Of a stretch of 64,000 nt of DNA, positions 37,167 to 59,418 are shown in pieces. The notes beneath the pieces are model-generated. The model was given only the letters and a program-made list of their open reading frames with translations. It was not told where the DNA came from and did no database searches. The translations under genes were made by a program, and so were the position numbers. Source of the DNA: an uncultured Pseudodesulfovibrio sp. Its GTDB lineage: Bacteria; Desulfobacterota; Desulfovibrionia; Desulfovibrionales; Desulfovibrionaceae. How positions within the stretch are numbered: the stretch's first letter is position 1; the number at the start of each line of letters is the position of its first letter. The stretch is from assembly GCF_963664965.1 (NCBI RefSeq), contig NZ_OY761823.1:1622001-1686000 (forward strand), read 5' to 3'.

Positions 37167-37241
37167 AGGCGCGTAGCTCAGGGGGAGAGCATTTGCTTGA
37201 CGTGCAAAGGGTCGTGGGTTCAAATCCCTCCGCGCCTACCA
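37167..37241 (+). tRNA. tRNA-Val (GAC)
   Basis: A complete cloverleaf: acceptor AGGCGCG/CGCGCCT, D arm GCTC/GAGC, anticodon stem TTTGC/GCAAA with loop TTGACGT (anticodon GAC), T loop TTCAAAT and an encoded CCA end. The T stem GTGGG/CCCTC has one U-U mismatch. It lies directly upstream of thrS, with its own promoter and a terminator after it. Confidence 0.95.
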
Positions 37242-53728: not shown

Positions 53729-54808
53729 TTACTCAGCGACGGCTTGTCCGCGTTCCACCTCCCGGCGAACGCAAGGTTCAACCGTATCTTGCGTGGTGCG
53801 TTCATGGGCATGGGGGCTTCTTTTCGAAGGCCCTTTGGAGGACGAGGGTGTCAGGCCCAATGAACGAATCATATCCCTGGCAATATCCAGCGAGTGTCCT
53901 GAAGTCGGGATGACCGCGTTTTTACCGGGGTAAATGTTGTAGTCCCTGCGGTGTTCCTCCGGTGTCATGGAAGGCATCAGGACGTTGCATCCTCTGGTCA
54001 GGGCCAGTTGCCGTTCCTTGGGACTCCCGGCTCCCAGAGCCGATGTGGATGGAATGTTGGCATGGGGATTGAGGATGCGTAGAAGGGCGGTCACCCTGTG
54101 GGACAGCGTAATACTGCCCGGACGCGCGTTGCCCAGCGGCGTGTGTGGGTGCGGAATGAACGGGCCGATGGCGATCATGTCGAGGTCCAGCTGGGTGAGG
54201 AACAGGATGTCGCGAAGGGTGGCAATCATGTCGGAGTCGGGCTGATCGACTATCACGCCGGAACCGATTTCGTAGCCCATGTCGCGTATGCCTTGAACCC
54301 GGTGGAGACGTGCCGAGAAATCTTCGCCGCCCCTGATTCGTTTGTACAGGCGGGGATTGGTCGTTTCGAGCTTGAGCAGGCAGCGGTCCGCGCCGCAGTC
54401 ACGCCAGAATTCGTATTCGTCCAGTCCCCGGTCTCCCAATGACAGGGTGACTGCCACGTCATGGCGTTCCTTTATGTCTCGGACAAGTTCCCCAATGATC
54501 TGAGTCGAATACCCGAAGTCGTCACCGGACTGGAGAACGATTGTCCCGGCTCCTGCCTCTGCTGCCACGGCTGCCGCGTCTCGGATGGCCTGAACGTCCA
54601 TGCGGTAGCGGGAAATCGTGCTGTTGGGAGCGCGCAGGCCGCAATAGTGGCATTTCTTGTCGCAGATGTTCGAGAATTCGATGATGGCTCGGAGGTATAC
54701 CTCGTTGCCGAAAATTTCCTGTTTAGTGGCTTCGGCCCGGGCGAACAGTTCATTGTCGTCTGCTCCGACCAGATAGGCGAGGATTTCTTGTTCAGTCAGG
54801 GTGTTCAT
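53729..54808 (-). CDS. hydE: [FeFe] hydrogenase H-cluster maturase HydE
   Basis: A radical SAM enzyme acting in assembly of the diiron subcluster of [FeFe] hydrogenase (359 aa). The CxxxCxxC triad is Cys49/53/56 (NICDKKCHYCGL). The barrel shows QSGDDFGY near 92-99, KLETTNP near 147-153 and DQPDSDMI near 189-196. I see no second auxiliary-cluster triad, which is also absent in many HydE. The C-terminus has a polar tail of about 40 residues. The ATG at 54808 overlaps the previous gene's stop (ATGA). HydF is not in this window. Confidence 0.93.
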   Translation of the reverse strand: MNTLTEQEILAYLVGADDNELFARAEATKQEIFGNEVYLRAIIEFSNICDKKCHYCGLRAPNSTISRYRMDVQAIRDAAAVAAEAGAGTIVLQSGDDFGYSTQIIGELVRDIKERHDVAVTLSLGDRGLDEYEFWRDCGADRCLLKLETTNPRLYKRIRGGEDFSARLHRVQGIRDMGYEIGSGVIVDQPDSDMIATLRDILFLTQLDLDMIAIGPFIPHPHTPLGNARPGSITLSHRVTALLRILNPHANIPSTSALGAGSPKERQLALTRGCNVLMPSMTPEEHRRDYNIYPGKNAVIPTSGHSLDIARDMIRSLGLTPSSSKGPSKRSPHAHERTTQDTVEPCVRREVERGQAVAE

Positions 54809-55389
54809 GGTTGTGATTCGTTTTGGTTGGTGTTCATTGCGCGGACGCATTCGTTGACCAGCCGGAAGGCTGCGAGGTCTTCATTGTTCGCTTCTGCCGG
54901 TGTCTTGCCGGTTTCGGCCCATTGCAGCAGCCGCTCCACATCGGTTTCCACCATGCCCCAGAACCCTTGCGGCGCATGTTCTTCCGCATGGGCATATTGA
55001 CCGAAGACAATGGTGTCGTCGGCAACGACTATCGGCAGGCACGGCAGCCTGCGGACGGGGTGCAGGTGAATCTTGTCCGGGTATCGGGTCTGCATTTCGG
55101 TCATGTATCGATGTGACGATTCTATCTCGTCCCTGATGCCCTGAATGGAAATGCCGAACCGGAGCGCTCCGAGAAAGGAATGTATCCATTTCGCATCGTG
55201 TCCCGGTTCCACGACGATGACGTCGAGCCGCTTGAAGTCGGGCTTTCCAAGCGTCGTCTCCAGACTGCTGCGGTGCGGGGGCGATTTTGCAAACGCCCCA
55301 TACACCGCAGCATGGAGAATGATTCTTCTGCGGGCGGCCCTGAAAAGGGCCGGCATATCCAGCGCTTCTATTCCCGCGGTAAGTCTCAT
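54805..55389 (-). CDS. Unrecognised protein between hydG and hydE
   Basis: A 194-aa soluble protein I cannot assign. It is basic, His-rich in two segments (AHAEEHAPQGFW, and HLHPVRRLPCLPIVVADD near 112-129), and shows strands LDVIVVEP near 55-62 and IVVADDTIVFG near 123-133 that recall a phospholipase-D-like fold, but no HKD catalytic pair is present. AGGTGG lies before the ATG. It starts 11 bases after the hydG stop and its stop overlaps the hydE start by four bases, so it is made with the two maturases. A role in H-cluster assembly or hydrogenase export is inference. Confidence 0.75.
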   Translation of the reverse strand: MRLTAGIEALDMPALFRAARRRIILHAAVYGAFAKSPPHRSSLETTLGKPDFKRLDVIVVEPGHDAKWIHSFLGALRFGISIQGIRDEIESSHRYMTEMQTRYPDKIHLHPVRRLPCLPIVVADDTIVFGQYAHAEEHAPQGFWGMVETDVERLLQWAETGKTPAEANNEDLAAFRLVNECVRAMNTNQNESQP

Positions 55390-55400
55390 TCGTGTCCCAC

Positions 55401-56825
55401 CTAGATGTAGAGATCCCGTTCGCCTGCTTCCATGCGGGCCATTCGGTCCGTGAGCAGTTTTTTGCGTTCGGGGTCGGCATAGTTTTCAAGTTCCTTGCGG
55501 ATGAGTTCTTCACCCACTCTCTTTGTTTCCTCGGATGCGTAGTCTTCAAGGTATTCCTTGAAAGTCAGCAATCCGTTGGGCAGGCAGAATTTCTGGATGA
55601 AGCCTGTCTTGGCCAGCTCCATGAAGTGTTCACCCGTGCGGCCCAGCCTGTAACAGGCGGTACACCATGACGGTACGTATCCGTGTTCGCCCACGATGGA
55701 TTGAATGACATCGTCAAGGCTGCGGTTGTCGCCGACACAGAACTGCTGCACGTCGGGCCTGTCGTATTCCGGGTCGCTGTATGCGCCGGGATATGTCCGT
55801 GAGCCGCCCGAGAGCTGGGATACGCCTACTTCCAGCAGCTCCTTGCGGAATTCGGCATTTTCGCGAGTGGTCAGAATCAGTCCCGTGTACGGCACTGCCA
55901 GACGCAGAACCGATACGATCTTCTTGAATTCGTGGTCCGTGGTCGGGTACGGCGGGTTGTAGGCGATGTCCGCGTTCAGTGCCGGTTCCAGTCGGGGGAA
56001 GGAAATGGTGTGCGGTCCCACGCCCCAGTCCCGTTCCAACTGCCGTGCGTGGTGAAGCAGGCCGAGAACTTCGTATACCGGGTCGTATAGTCCGAACAGG
56101 GCACCCATCCCCACATCGTCGATGCCTGCCTCCTGAGCGCGGTGCATGGCGTGCAGACGCCACAGGAAATCCTTCTTGGGGCCTGCCTTGTGCAGTTTTT
56201 CATAGGTGGGACGGTGATAGCTTTCCTGAAAACACTGGTAGGTGCCGATGCCCACTTCGTGCAGTTTGCGGAATCCTTCCACGTCCAGCGGGGCACAGTT
56301 GATGTTGACGCGTCGTATTTCGCCGCTCTTGGCCGAGATTACCGAGTACACGTCCTTGACGGTTTCGGCGATCCAGTCCGCGCCCAGAGTGGGGTGCTCG
56401 CCGTAGACCAGCAGCAGCCGTTTGTGACCGATGTTTTCAAGGACTTCGACTTCACTCTTGATTTCCTCGGGGGAAAGGGTGCGCCGGTCCAGTTCCTTGT
56501 TGGCTGCCTTGAATCCACAGTACTGACACTGATTGGAGCATTCGTTGGTGATGTAGAGCGGGGCGAAGACTACCAGCCGATTGCCGTAGATGGCTTTCTT
56601 GATGTTGATGGCGGTCTCGAAGATGGCCTCGTCCAGTTCGCGGTCGGTGTTGCGGAGCAGGGCTGCGGCTTCGTCCGGGTCCAGTCCCTGTTTTTCCTCG
56701 GCCTTGAGAAGGATTTCCTTGATGAGTCCGGGGCTGGGGTTTTCGCTTTTGGCCATCTCGGCCCGGATGGTTTCCTCATCGATGAAATTTTGCAGTTTGC
56801 CGTCTAATGTGCTGTCCTGTTTCAT
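55401..56825 (-). CDS. hydG: [FeFe] hydrogenase H-cluster maturase HydG
   Basis: A radical SAM tyrosine lyase that makes the CO and cyanide ligands of the H-cluster (474 aa, family-normal). The N-terminal CxxxCxxC is Cys96/100/103 (NECSNQCQYCGF). The C-terminal auxiliary cluster motif CTACYRLGRTG, followed about 22 residues later by a third cysteine (IQKFC), is near 387-413. It is preceded by the TM1266-type gene (16-bp gap) and followed by the unknown gene, then hydE. Confidence 0.96.
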   Translation of the reverse strand: MKQDSTLDGKLQNFIDEETIRAEMAKSENPSPGLIKEILLKAEEKQGLDPDEAAALLRNTDRELDEAIFETAINIKKAIYGNRLVVFAPLYITNECSNQCQYCGFKAANKELDRRTLSPEEIKSEVEVLENIGHKRLLLVYGEHPTLGADWIAETVKDVYSVISAKSGEIRRVNINCAPLDVEGFRKLHEVGIGTYQCFQESYHRPTYEKLHKAGPKKDFLWRLHAMHRAQEAGIDDVGMGALFGLYDPVYEVLGLLHHARQLERDWGVGPHTISFPRLEPALNADIAYNPPYPTTDHEFKKIVSVLRLAVPYTGLILTTRENAEFRKELLEVGVSQLSGGSRTYPGAYSDPEYDRPDVQQFCVGDNRSLDDVIQSIVGEHGYVPSWCTACYRLGRTGEHFMELAKTGFIQKFCLPNGLLTFKEYLEDYASEETKRVGEELIRKELENYADPERKKLLTDRMARMEAGERDLYI

Positions 56826-56841: not shown

Positions 56842-57084
56842 TTAGACCAGAAGTGATTTGACTCGTACGCCTTCCAGCATGCCGAGTTTGCCTGTCAACG
56901 CTCCAACTTCGTCGGTAGTCGCTTCAACGATCAGATCAATGATGTTCACGCCCCTGTCTTTGAAAGGCAGTCCCATGCGTCCAACCACGATTGAACCATA
57001 CTCGCAGAGAATCTCATTGACTTCCGGAGCCGTTTTGAATCTGTCCGTGATGATTATGCCGATGATGCCGAGCCGTTTTTCCAT
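56842..57084 (-). CDS. TM1266-type iron-only hydrogenase system regulator
   Basis: An 80-aa small alpha-beta protein of the ACT/NikR-like C-terminal fold, matching the TM1266 family of putative regulators found with [FeFe] hydrogenases. It begins MEKRLGIIGIIITDR and contains the family stretch GRMGLPFKDRGVNIIDLIVEA (here quoted in part: GLPFKDRGVNIIDLI near 38-52). It has no DNA-binding domain, so it may sense a metabolite or metal and act through a partner. I start at ATG 57084, eight bases after AAAGGA; the long frame to 57186 is not used. It is the first gene behind a structured leader. Confidence 0.88.
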   Translation of the reverse strand: MEKRLGIIGIIITDRFKTAPEVNEILCEYGSIVVGRMGLPFKDRGVNIIDLIVEATTDEVGALTGKLGMLEGVRVKSLLV

Positions 57085-57125
57085 GTGATGATCCTTTCTT
57101 TTGTTGCTTTCCCGCAAAGGAGAAA

Positions 57126-57145
57126 GCCCGGTTTTCAGTCCGGGC
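57126..57145 (-). terminator. Terminator-like hairpin in the TM1266/hydG leader
   Basis: On the minus strand GCCCGG (57145-57140), an 8-base loop ACTGAAAA, CCGGGC (57131-57126), then TTTCTCCTTT. It lies 42 bp before the TM1266-type ATG and after a structured leader, the arrangement of a transcription attenuator. Confidence 0.6.
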
Positions 57146-57148
57146 AAT

Positions 57149-57290
57149 CTGCATGCGGTAAAGGAGGGAGCTTCAGGATCACACAACTGCGTTACGGTAA
57201 GGGCAGAAATCCAGAAGGCTCCACCCTGAGGTTCAGGCTAACCCTTGCCGCAGGCAGATTTTCTCCGGTCGGAGGTGTTCTTGGGGAAAT
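57149..57290 (-). ncRNA. Candidate structured leader RNA of the maturase operon
   Basis: On the minus strand, about 140 nt just downstream of the promoter at 57290-57318. Visible helices are CTCC-GACC-GGAG, CTGCGG paired with CCGTAACGCAG, CAAGGG-type with CCCTT, and CCTGA-ACC-TCAGG, forming a multibranch fold before the terminator-like hairpin. The layout is riboswitch-like. I compared it mentally with TPP, cobalamin, SAM, c-di-GMP and molybdenum-cofactor classes and could not match any. Confidence 0.5.
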
Positions 57291-57318
57291 TCATAAGCAA
57301 AAGAATAATACTAATCAA
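57290..57318 (-). promoter_or_regulatory. Promoter for TM1266-hydG-unknown-hydE
   Basis: Minus strand TTGATT (57318-57313), an exact 17-base spacer and TATGAA (57295-57290). Transcription would begin near 57283, right at the structured leader, so the maturase operon has its own start apart from hydAB. Confidence 0.6.
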
Positions 57319-57368
57319 GAAAAAATTACATTAAATGTATAACTTTTTAAAAAAAGTGACACCTGAGA

Positions 57369-57384
57369 CAGGCAAGACTGCCTG
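57369..57384 (-). terminator. Possible weak terminator after hydB
   Basis: CAGGCA-AGAC-TGCCTG hairpin; on the minus strand a T run occurs only about 12 bases further, so it is a weak candidate for ending the hydAB message. The rest of 57346-57506 shows nothing recognisable. Confidence 0.35.
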
Positions 57385-57506
57385 CGAAGGGCGGACGGAA
57401 TGATGCTGTACGGGCAGGGGAGAAATGAAATGGAGTGAAAGAAAGGGAAGCGTTTGGCCCTTGGGTCAGAGGATTCCTCGCCGCAGGACAACGCTGTTTG
57501 ACGGTG

Positions 57507-57845
57507 TTAGAAGTTCAGCTTGAAGCCTTTGTCCTTGAGAGCCTTCACACGGGCGCTGCGGTCGATATAATGCGTGTGCAGCAGGTGATGGGACATATGT
57601 CCGCAGGGGCCTTCATGCAGGAAACCCGTTTTGTGGTCATAAATCTTCTTGACCATGGGATTGTCCTGAGACTTTCTGAGCTTGTAGATCTTGGGATTGG
57701 CGTCAGCATCGTATACGGATTTCTGGCGCAGCCCCACAAACTCCATGGTGCTGGCAATGGCAACCTTTGTCATGTTGACGCTGAGGACTGCATAGCCGGT
57801 CATGATGCCGCAGGCCTTGATGAAACCACGTCTATTCATTTTCAT
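57507..57845 (-). CDS. hydB: Periplasmic [FeFe] hydrogenase small subunit
   Basis: The small subunit of the Desulfovibrio-type periplasmic [FeFe] hydrogenase (112 aa; D. vulgaris HydB about 123). It carries the Tat signal NRRGFIKACG near residues 4-13, which exports both subunits, followed by helices that wrap the large subunit: ASQDN-like KLRKSQDNPMVKKIYD near 55-70 and GHMSHHLLHTHYIDRS near 82-97. ATG at 57845 or 57839 (two codons later) both fit the AAGGAGG site. It lies 14 bp after hydA. Confidence 0.93.
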   Translation of the reverse strand: MKMNRRGFIKACGIMTGYAVLSVNMTKVAIASTMEFVGLRQKSVYDADANPKIYKLRKSQDNPMVKKIYDHKTGFLHEGPCGHMSHHLLHTHYIDRSARVKALKDKGFKLNF

Positions 57846-57859
57846 ATCTTCATTCCTCC

Positions 57860-59119
57860 TTATGCGGTGACCTTGCGTGCCCGGAAGCGCTGGTTGATCT
57901 TGGCGACCGTGCTTCTGAACAGGGACGCGGTGACCTCCGGATCGAGAGGCTGGCCTGCGCCGTTCACGCAACCGCCGGGGCAGCTCATGATTTCAATGAA
58001 GTGGTACGGAGATTTTCCGGCCCGCACTTCATCGCACAGCTTGGCAGCATTCTTGAGGCCACTGGCCACGGCGACTTTGACAGTGCCGAATCCGGGCACC
58101 TTAACGTCAGCAGTATTGATGCCTTCGTGGGTGCGGACGACCTTGATATCCGGGTTGTTCAGCTTCTTGCCGGACAGGACTTCGTAAGCGAGCCTGAGGG
58201 CCGCTTCCATGACGCCGCCGCTGTTGCCGAAGATGGTGGCGGCACCGGTGGAGTCGCCCAGAGCCGGGTCGGGCTTCTGTTCAGGCAGGCTGTTGAAGTT
58301 GATGCCCGCTGTCTTGATCATTGCCGCCAGTTCGCGGGTATTGATCGTTGCATCGATGTCACGGAAACCGCTGTCTGCCAGTTCAGGCCTGAGGCCTTCG
58401 TACTTCTTGGCGATACAGGGCATGATGGAAACCGTGTAGATTTTCTTGGCTTCGGTGTGCGTCTCATGCGCTCCGTACGTCTTGGCCAGAGGTCCGAGCA
58501 TGCCGATGGGCGATTTGCAGCTGGACAGGTTGGGCAGCAGGTCCGGGTAGAAGGTCTCGGCGAACTTGACCCAGCCCGGGCAGCAGGAAGTGAACTGCGG
58601 CAGGGGACGGGCGTCTTTCTTGCCCTGTTCCTGAACGCGCTGGATGAGTTCGGTGCCTTCTTCCATGATGGTGACGTCGGCAGTGAACTCGTTGTCCCAG
58701 ATGTAGTCGAAGCCGAGCTGGCGCAGTGCTGCATGCATCTGGCCACCGACATACGTGCCGGTTGCAGCGCCGAAGCATTCGCCAAGCCCGTAGCGAACTG
58801 CCGGAGCGGGCATGGACACGACCACGGTATCCGGGTCTTTGAGTTTTTCGAATATCTCGTCAACATACGAGACGCCTTCGTAAATAGCGCCGTAAGGACA
58901 GTTGGACAGGCATTGTCCGCAGTTCATACAGGCTGCAGGGTCAATGACCTGACGAATACCATCTTCGTTGATGGCCTGAATTGCGCCGGTCCCGCATACT
59001 TCTTCGCATGAACCACAGGCTTCACACTTGGTGGCGTCTACCTGGACAAAAAAGATGCTGTCCGGATCGACTCCCTTCGGTGCGTTGGATTGGTACATGA
59101 CGCCTTCAATCTTTTTCAT
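57860..59119 (-). CDS. hydA: Periplasmic [FeFe] hydrogenase large subunit
   Basis: Catalytic subunit (419 aa; D. vulgaris HydA 421). Two [4Fe-4S] ferredoxin motifs are at Cys32/35/38/42 and Cys64/67/70/74. H-cluster motifs are L1 TSCCPGW (177-183, with Cys179 for proton transfer and Cys180 as ligand), L2 MPCIAKK (Cys235) and L3 CPGGC (380-384). It interconverts H2 and protons in the periplasm, feeding the cytochrome c3 network. I start at ATG 59119 behind GGAGGGAACA; a second in-frame ATG at 59200, also behind AAAGGAGG, would add 27 residues. It is exported with HydB by Tat. Confidence 0.97.
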   Translation of the reverse strand: MKKIEGVMYQSNAPKGVDPDSIFFVQVDATKCEACGSCEEVCGTGAIQAINEDGIRQVIDPAACMNCGQCLSNCPYGAIYEGVSYVDEIFEKLKDPDTVVVSMPAPAVRYGLGECFGAATGTYVGGQMHAALRQLGFDYIWDNEFTADVTIMEEGTELIQRVQEQGKKDARPLPQFTSCCPGWVKFAETFYPDLLPNLSSCKSPIGMLGPLAKTYGAHETHTEAKKIYTVSIMPCIAKKYEGLRPELADSGFRDIDATINTRELAAMIKTAGINFNSLPEQKPDPALGDSTGAATIFGNSGGVMEAALRLAYEVLSGKKLNNPDIKVVRTHEGINTADVKVPGFGTVKVAVASGLKNAAKLCDEVRAGKSPYHFIEIMSCPGGCVNGAGQPLDPEVTASLFRSTVAKINQRFRARKVTA

Positions 59120-59418
59120 TGTTCCCTCCTTGTTGGGGTGGATTGAAGACAAGTCGACCGGTGTGACGACCGGTGCTGACTTTGGCGTGCATCCTGACAT
59201 AGGATAGCCTCCTTTGCTCCCGTTGAGCTTGACGTGTATCTTATAGTGAACACGAAATTAAAAAAAATAACACAATAGAGGTATTATTTGCAAAACAGTA
59301 GTCATGTCAAGGGGGGTAATGATTCTACATCGATTGTTTTTCAGGAAAGTGTAATGCAGTGGGCGGATGTTCGAAGGTTCGGGAATGGTTATCAACTTTG
59401 GATCACTGTACGAGAAAA
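59120..59418. other. Upstream region of hydA
   Basis: About 300 bp between the hydA start and the helicase terminator. It holds the alternative hydA start at 59200, a TATAAG hexamer on the minus strand near 59240 as possible -10, and an A+T-rich stretch. No regulator site is recognised with confidence. Confidence 0.4.

Follow-up and report, generated by a model that had tools for sequence, protein, structure and literature searches.

The window analysed here is a stretch of 64,000 nucleotides from an uncultured Pseudodesulfovibrio sp. (contig NZ_OY761823.1), and towards its end the minus strand carries a [FeFe]-hydrogenase locus in which the structural genes are followed by an RNA leader and by genes of the maturation pathway. 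Listed in the direction of reading, its features are:

57507..59200, minus strand: [FeFe]-hydrogenase large and small subunits, upstream of the leader (large, ORF 57860-59200; small, ORF 57507-57971)
57509-57507, minus strand: hydB stop codon, read from the sequence
57449..57495, minus strand: motif copy A, P1 AGCGTT (57495-57490) / AACGCT (57454-57449), core CCTGCGGCGAGGAATCCTCTGACCCAAGGG (57487-57458)
57350..57374, minus strand: hairpin plus T run resembling a terminator, located past copy A and ahead of the leader promoter, from the terminator scan
57318-57290, minus strand: promoter-like TTGATT-N17-TATGAA of the TM1266 operon (TTGATT 57318-57313, TATGAA 57295-57290)
57263..57274, minus strand: 5′ hairpin CTCC-GACC-GGAG, its four pairs kept without variation in 13 of 13 aligned same-genus leaders
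57148..57258, minus strand: three-way junction closed by P1 TCTGC (57258-57254) / GCAGA (57152-57148), from the RNAalifold consensus
57224..57254, minus strand: motif copy B, core hairpin CCTGCGGCAAGGGTTAGCCTGAACCTCAGGG (match to model R1 at 57218-57258, 65.3 bits)
57163..57225, minus strand: P3/P4, GG-GGAGC...CTGG / CCTG...GCTCC-CC, from folds and the same-genus consensus
57116..57145, minus strand: intrinsic terminator GCCCGG-N8-CCGGGC with pyrimidine/T tract, from the terminator scan
56842..57084, minus strand: TM1266-family protein (TIGR03959, PF21699), first gene past the leader, ATG at 57084
55401..56825, minus strand: hydG (TIGR03955), by family profile match
54805..55389, minus strand: ORF of 194 aa, located between hydG and hydE and matched by no family of Pfam or NCBIfam
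53729..54850, minus strand: hydE (TIGR03956), by family profile match

A sequence-only reading had already placed a promoter, hairpins, a terminator and this gene order here, and its coordinates proved right when checked on the sequence; the terminator hairpin that it set before TM1266 is likewise found by the terminator scan. The terminator stem (GCCCGG/CCGGGC, 57145-57126) is followed by TTTCTCCTTT, 5′ of TM1266, and is identical in 13 aligned same-genus leaders, departing in L004 and L035 (two unaligned leaders, of 15). The proposed promoter holds in part: both hexamers and the spacer are present, and among the 13 same-genus loci with upstream DNA compared, 12 have TTGATT at a similar distance (L002 being the exception), but the sequence has 8 of 12 consensus bases and was not called by the promoter scan, the threshold of which was 9 of 12. 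Relatives of the ORF between hydG and hydE are present in a number of related hyd loci. BLAST of the leader also revealed a second, paralogous hydAB-TM1266-hydG locus in the same genome (L126, C1:2159500-2167500), with its own pair of motif copies in the same places as at the window locus.

The leader (57284-57085, minus strand) is strongly foldable, as had been proposed, with a predicted energy of -72.6 kcal/mol against -56.9 ± 4.3 kcal/mol in 200 dinucleotide shuffles (z -3.68), none of which was as good as the native sequence. The helices named earlier fared unevenly: the 5′ hairpin CTCC-GACC-GGAG stands, CTGCGG/CGCAG belongs to a competing minimum-energy fold and not to the conserved core, and CCTGA-ACC-TCAGG gives way to a core with the pairs CCT/AGG, GG/CC and AGG/CCT (57254-57224). 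This core defines a motif of 31 nt, CCTGCGG-NA-AGG-loop-YCTGA-CC-AGGG, closed by helix P1. In the RNAalifold consensus of 13 chosen same-genus leaders (those with copy B followed by TGGAG, minus L004 and L035), P1, the motif and P3/P4 form a three-way junction beside the terminator stem. Because some G residues of the motif's AGGG also lie in the 5′ strand of P3, formation of the core can meet competition from an extended P3. Folding of the unbound window leader is predicted to favour the competing fold by 9 kcal/mol, the terminator stem being present in both; this predicted preference would fit a motif that needs something to hold it, and it makes a stable free motif less likely in the window leader. 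The terminator loop begins with AGTGCT in 11 of the 13 aligned same-genus leaders, the window species and L011 being the two that differ, and the idea of a repeat related to this loop (AGTGCTAA) was dropped after 0 matches within the window.

Another copy of the motif, absent from the sequence-only reading, starts 12 bases past the hydB stop codon. Copy A is weak by score (R1 match 57452-57487, 16.2 bits, E 0.16), so the case for it is made by position, by P1 and by relatives: most of those within the genus have a copy at this site too, and the minimum-energy fold of copy A is the motif plus P1. R1 matches are often paired, about 100-235 nt apart, with copy A just past the hydB stop and copy B as the leader core; judged by eye, P1 of copy A is often followed by pyrimidine-rich DNA. 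The 65.3 bits of copy B are not an independent score, since R1 was built in part from that copy.

The motif recurs well beyond the genus, and mostly beside the same genes. When the leader was compared by BLAST with 199 family genomes, 25 gave matches at E ≤ 0.01, the own genome and some chance matches included. R1, a covariance model of 22 cores, was run on 288 family, 297 class and 345 phylum genomes (overlapping sets), and its strong matches, where loci were retrieved, adjoin hyd genes, with L061 and L102 as exceptions above 30 bits. A DNA pattern for the core, scanned over about 85,000 genomes of GTDB r220, returned 32 stretches, 27 of which have a same-strand homologue of HydA, HydB, TM1266, HydE or HydG within 1 kb; the other five (L138, L143, L146, L147, L157) have a hyd gene on neither strand. 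Of the 27, 24 have TM1266 at most 1 kb downstream, the others being L135, L153 and L158. The hyd-linked stretches include Moorella thermoacetica, M. sulfitireducens and other Bacillota MAGs, a Lentisphaerae MAG, a Desulfofervidaceae MAG, Desulfonauticus, Solidesulfovibrio and Pseudodesulfovibrio. A second model of 84 cores, R2, was run on the 16 whole genomes behind hyd-linked loci, every one of which has one or two matches, and it also gave matches in 8 of 219 genomes of Moorella's phylum and 6 of 155 genomes of the phylum of the Lentisphaerae MAG (query centres included in both); eight of ten further R2 loci (L180-L189) adjoin TM1266, hydE or hydG. Matches without an adjoining hyd gene (L061, L062, L064-L070, L102, L108, L109, L121 and, likewise, L138, L143, L146, L147, L157, L185, L188) look like coding sequence or chance and were set aside. 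Other placements beside hyd genes also occur: the motif stands 5′ of hydG without an adjacent TM1266 in L158, and five g25 loci (L115-L119) have a copy past hydB with no TM1266 nearby, an SbmA/BacA-like ABC transporter coming next in the one compared with Pfam.

Terminators accompany the motif far more often than expected by chance: 35 of 57 motif leaders have a hairpin resembling a terminator no more than 200 nt 3′ of the motif, compared with 2, 3, 3, 0 and 1 of 57 in shuffled sets; this set contains the near-duplicates L131/L154/L180, L182/L221, L228/L259 and L284/L286, and its L002 row is placed on copy A and not on copy B. No terminator was found by the rule used in the remaining 22, including 10 of the 11 Desulfovibrionales leaders outside the genus of the window. 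At L134, L140, L144 and L131, the AGGG strand of the motif starts a helix of 7-9 bp that reaches the 5′ arm of the terminator (GGGCTGGA/TCCAGCCC in L134, GGGCTAATG/CATTAGCCC in L140 and L144, and GGGTTGA/TCAACCC, p 0.16, in L131). Among 28 leaders (L002, L154, L180, L182, L259, L286 and L097 left out), such a competing helix beats shuffles in 5, overlaps the terminator in 12 and does both in 3 (L134, L140, L144). Across these 28 leaders, the predicted helices are suggestive of an antiterminator layout that excludes both motif and terminator, a layout which predicts that a stabilised motif means termination.

Covariation among homologues, proposed earlier as a check, is found in two parts of the structure, P1 and the central helix. 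P1 varies in sequence among species, and its strands are complementary beyond chance over 90 copies (93 regex matches minus the false ones L006, L052 and L098), with a mean helix of 4.36 against 3.01 ± 0.13 when the 3′ strands were permuted (0 of 1000 permutations; relatedness among copies not corrected). Within the genus, the core pairs hardly vary, with two-sided change in 3 of 34 pairs and a slightly unfavourable covariation term; these counts exclude alignments A3-A5, because the core has 30- and 31-nt forms that MAFFT fails to align correctly. More variation is seen at a distance. When the 30 best-scoring TM1266 loci of each group were examined, R2 matches of at least 26 bits lay close to 27 in the window's class but to only 2 in Moorella's phylum, these 60 loci being the best-scoring and not a random sample. 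The misses in Moorella's phylum perhaps reflect a degenerate, tandem form of the motif: many TM1266 leaders there contain one hairpin of the plan CCT-GA-x-(A)AGG...YCTGA-x′-(A)AGG, or two in tandem, and complementarity between x and x′ is kept although both change in sequence.

This degenerate form was assessed in two ways. A relaxed anchor that makes no demand on pairing occurs in 17 of 68 TM1266 upstream regions (61 from Moorella's phylum and 7 from the window's class, L211 and L298 left out), whereas 50 rounds of shuffled sequence gave 0.32 on average and never more than 2; all 17 are among the 61 regions of Moorella's phylum, with 0 of 7 in the window's class. They give 20 matches, some overlapping or near-identical, in which x/x′ pairing is 2.55 against 1.81 ± 0.14 permuted (0 of 2000). 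Sixteen hand-picked units, which were chosen after some of their pairing was known and are more biased than the 68 regions, have 88.8% of cells paired against 73.8 ± 2.1% shuffled and a covariation score of 0.405 against 0.129 shuffled (0 of 500). Three central pairs of these units show 4-5 pair types each and a fourth cannot form in 7 of 16 units. Of five measures, two fall short of a clear excess over shuffles (two-sided change, 371/500; further pair types, 55/500). From these patterns of substitution, we conclude that the structure is selected as RNA and roughly two-fold symmetric. A g25 TM1266 leader (L297, 371-438, minus strand) appears, by eye, to contain three degenerate repeats and a T6 terminator; the relaxed anchor gives no such site in L297, and R2 gives none in five related g25 TM1266 loci.

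The leader matches no Rfam family, in agreement with the sequence-only reading, which recognised no riboswitch class in it. Of the two outcomes that this reading had named as refuting it, an Rfam hit or a lack of covariation among homologues, neither was obtained. A search with all families of Rfam 15, riboswitches included, gave a single match above the gathering threshold in the window, a tRNA gene at 37167-37238, and 0 families matched at 14 related loci. With E raised to 10, the leader gave weak matches to two snoRNAs and BjrC68, taken as chance. The RNA families of a 2017 survey are reportedly in Rfam. Among the papers listed by literature searches, no description was found of RNA control for hydG/hydE, TM1266 or [FeFe]-hydrogenase maturation, and the main text of four RNA discovery or review papers (PMC2864571, PMC11109978, PMC8632094, PMC7266159) mentions neither hydrogenase nor hydG; Rex, a regulator that binds DNA, is reported to control hydG in Caldicellulosiruptor bescii.

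Several known systems share parts of this arrangement. The element resembles terminator-platform riboswitches, tandem ones included, in its conserved core, closing helix and tandem copies, as well as in the nearby terminators and, in some lineages, the competing helix; unlike the known ones, it is not in Rfam 15 and any ligand for it is putative. As a leader RNA for cofactor-biosynthesis genes it also recalls the Moco/Tuco RNA (a riboswitch candidate of a metal-cofactor pathway), but the leader gives no match to Moco/Tuco even at E 10. PyrR comes to mind because the RNA site is symmetric, a regulon has several such sites and the regulator gene leads; the pyr operon, too, opens with the gene of its own regulator. 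PMC7430163 describes the PyrR sites, in the leader and between cistrons, as several short hairpins with a purine-rich internal bulge, the bound form acting as an anti-antiterminator. In contrast to PyrR, TM1266 is NikR-C/ACT-like and not a phosphoribosyltransferase, its RNA binding is putative, and the RNA family of the PyrR-type binding loop has no match in the window, the leader or the 14 related loci. Overall, we regard the element as a new RNA family, although regulators of this kind are already known.

TM1266 itself is a candidate for the effector. Its structural model best matches T. maritima TM1266 (2nzc), then NikR C-terminal and ACT domains, with weaker fold matches to NusE/S10 and S6. 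By structure comparison it has the fold of the metal-sensing C-terminal domain of NikR, but it differs from NikR in consisting of that domain alone, with no DNA-binding part. It is encoded in 12 of 14 motif genomes tested, including 10 of 10 that are at least 90% complete, and is also encoded in genomes where the motif lies elsewhere, past hydB (g25), before hydG (L158) and at L101/L104/L112. The two misses (G669, G670) are MAGs without stated completeness; the motif of G669 lies past hydB, and that of G670 may be a chance match. Among 67 TM1266-positive genomes of the class, R1 reaches at least 28 bits in 31 and stays below 28 bits in 36, and four TM1266-negative genomes of the window's genus (G116, G178, G281, G282) have no R1 match above 21 bits. 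A comparison of 17 TM1266 proteins with a detected motif and 32 without revealed no difference in residues, conserved basic ones included.

Taken together, these observations make it very probable that the leader is a cis-acting attenuator RNA. In the mechanism that we propose, the core would be a short pseudo-symmetric hairpin (CCT-GA-x..-AAGG twice) with a variable central helix that can occur in tandem. In the unbound state, its 3′ strand (AGGG...) would be free to pair downstream, in several lineages with the 5′ arm of the terminator, and this pairing would act as an antiterminator. An effector that holds the core hairpin would abolish the antiterminator pairing, so that the terminator could form and less maturase would be made, amounting to negative feedback; this direction of control, like the effector, is something we infer. 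TM1266 might serve as a PyrR-like effector, one protein acting on attenuators 3′ of hydB, 5′ of TM1266-hydG and 5′ of a hydE-linked locus. Copy A would presumably work in the same way, but it lies in a 3′ UTR, from which it is hard to see how the next operon would be attenuated, and this speaks against our main reading. We tentatively put forward TM1266 as the putative effector, and hold with middling confidence the reading as a whole, an attenuator of the H-cluster maturation operon with TM1266 as effector and an RNA family outside Rfam.

The main competitor is a riboswitch in the strict sense, in which the RNA would itself bind SAM, tyrosine, Fe2+ or a cofactor intermediate and attenuate the maturase operon, and we consider this a serious, if somewhat doubtful, possibility. 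In the window's genus, the terminator immediately follows a three-way junction whose purine-rich internal loops hardly vary, which would suit an aptamer, as would a core kept across phyla, tied to one pathway and found in tandem, and the motif 5′ of hydG in L158, where TM1266 is not adjacent. However, so small a core, pseudo-symmetric and with a spacer helix that varies, is in our judgement unusual for an aptamer, and both the copies 3′ of hydB and the presence of TM1266 in all ten tested motif genomes that are at least 90% complete argue against a riboswitch. The gene neighbourhood singles out no particular small ligand. We lean slightly towards TM1266 over a directly ligand-sensing riboswitch, which is nearly as likely.

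Two further explanations would do without any sensing. An effector-free element of mRNA processing or stability, or a plain terminator, could set the ratio of structural to maturation transcripts, as copy A at the end of hydAB, the pyrimidine-rich DNA that often follows its P1 and the g25 loci that keep a copy past hydB without TM1266 nearby might suggest; yet a specific internal-loop sequence conserved across phyla, together with separate terminators, would seem to exceed what stability needs, and we regard this explanation as improbable. A feature of the DNA, whether operator, mobile repeat or chance conservation, would agree with the two similarly spaced copies at many loci, but we give it hardly any credence, given that the motif lies on the hyd-gene strand in 27 of 27 hyd-linked stretches, shows compensatory changes in P1 and the central helix, and occurs in one or two copies per genome.

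Returning to the attenuator with TM1266 as its putative effector, the conservation of one element in sulfate reducers as well as acetogens suggests that demand for the H-cluster is signalled in a common way. The TM1266 protein, for which there was no explanation, would thereby acquire a role open to experiment, and hydrogenase expression might be steered through the element in biotechnology. We think it rather probable that either these pseudo-symmetric, often tandem hairpins of Desulfobacterota, Bacillota and a Lentisphaerae MAG are a new riboswitch class that directly senses an assembly intermediate or product of the H-cluster, or TM1266 founds a new family of sensor-domain proteins whose regulation works through RNA and not DNA.

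Nickel-related genes appear beside the motif at a few loci. At L135 (1398-2494, minus strand), the motif past hydB overlaps or precedes a gene of PF01969, a nickel-insertion family. In L101 (4135-5826), L104 (4135-5793) and L112 (minus strand), the motif lies just 5′ of a homologue of the [NiFe]-hydrogenase large subunit (PF00374 in L101 and L104, by eye in L112), with a HydE homologue next. The protein reads LCNDGH where the first CxxC motif would be expected, and keeps DPCNxC; judged from these residues and neighbours, it appears to be an odd HydE-linked NiFe-like enzyme.
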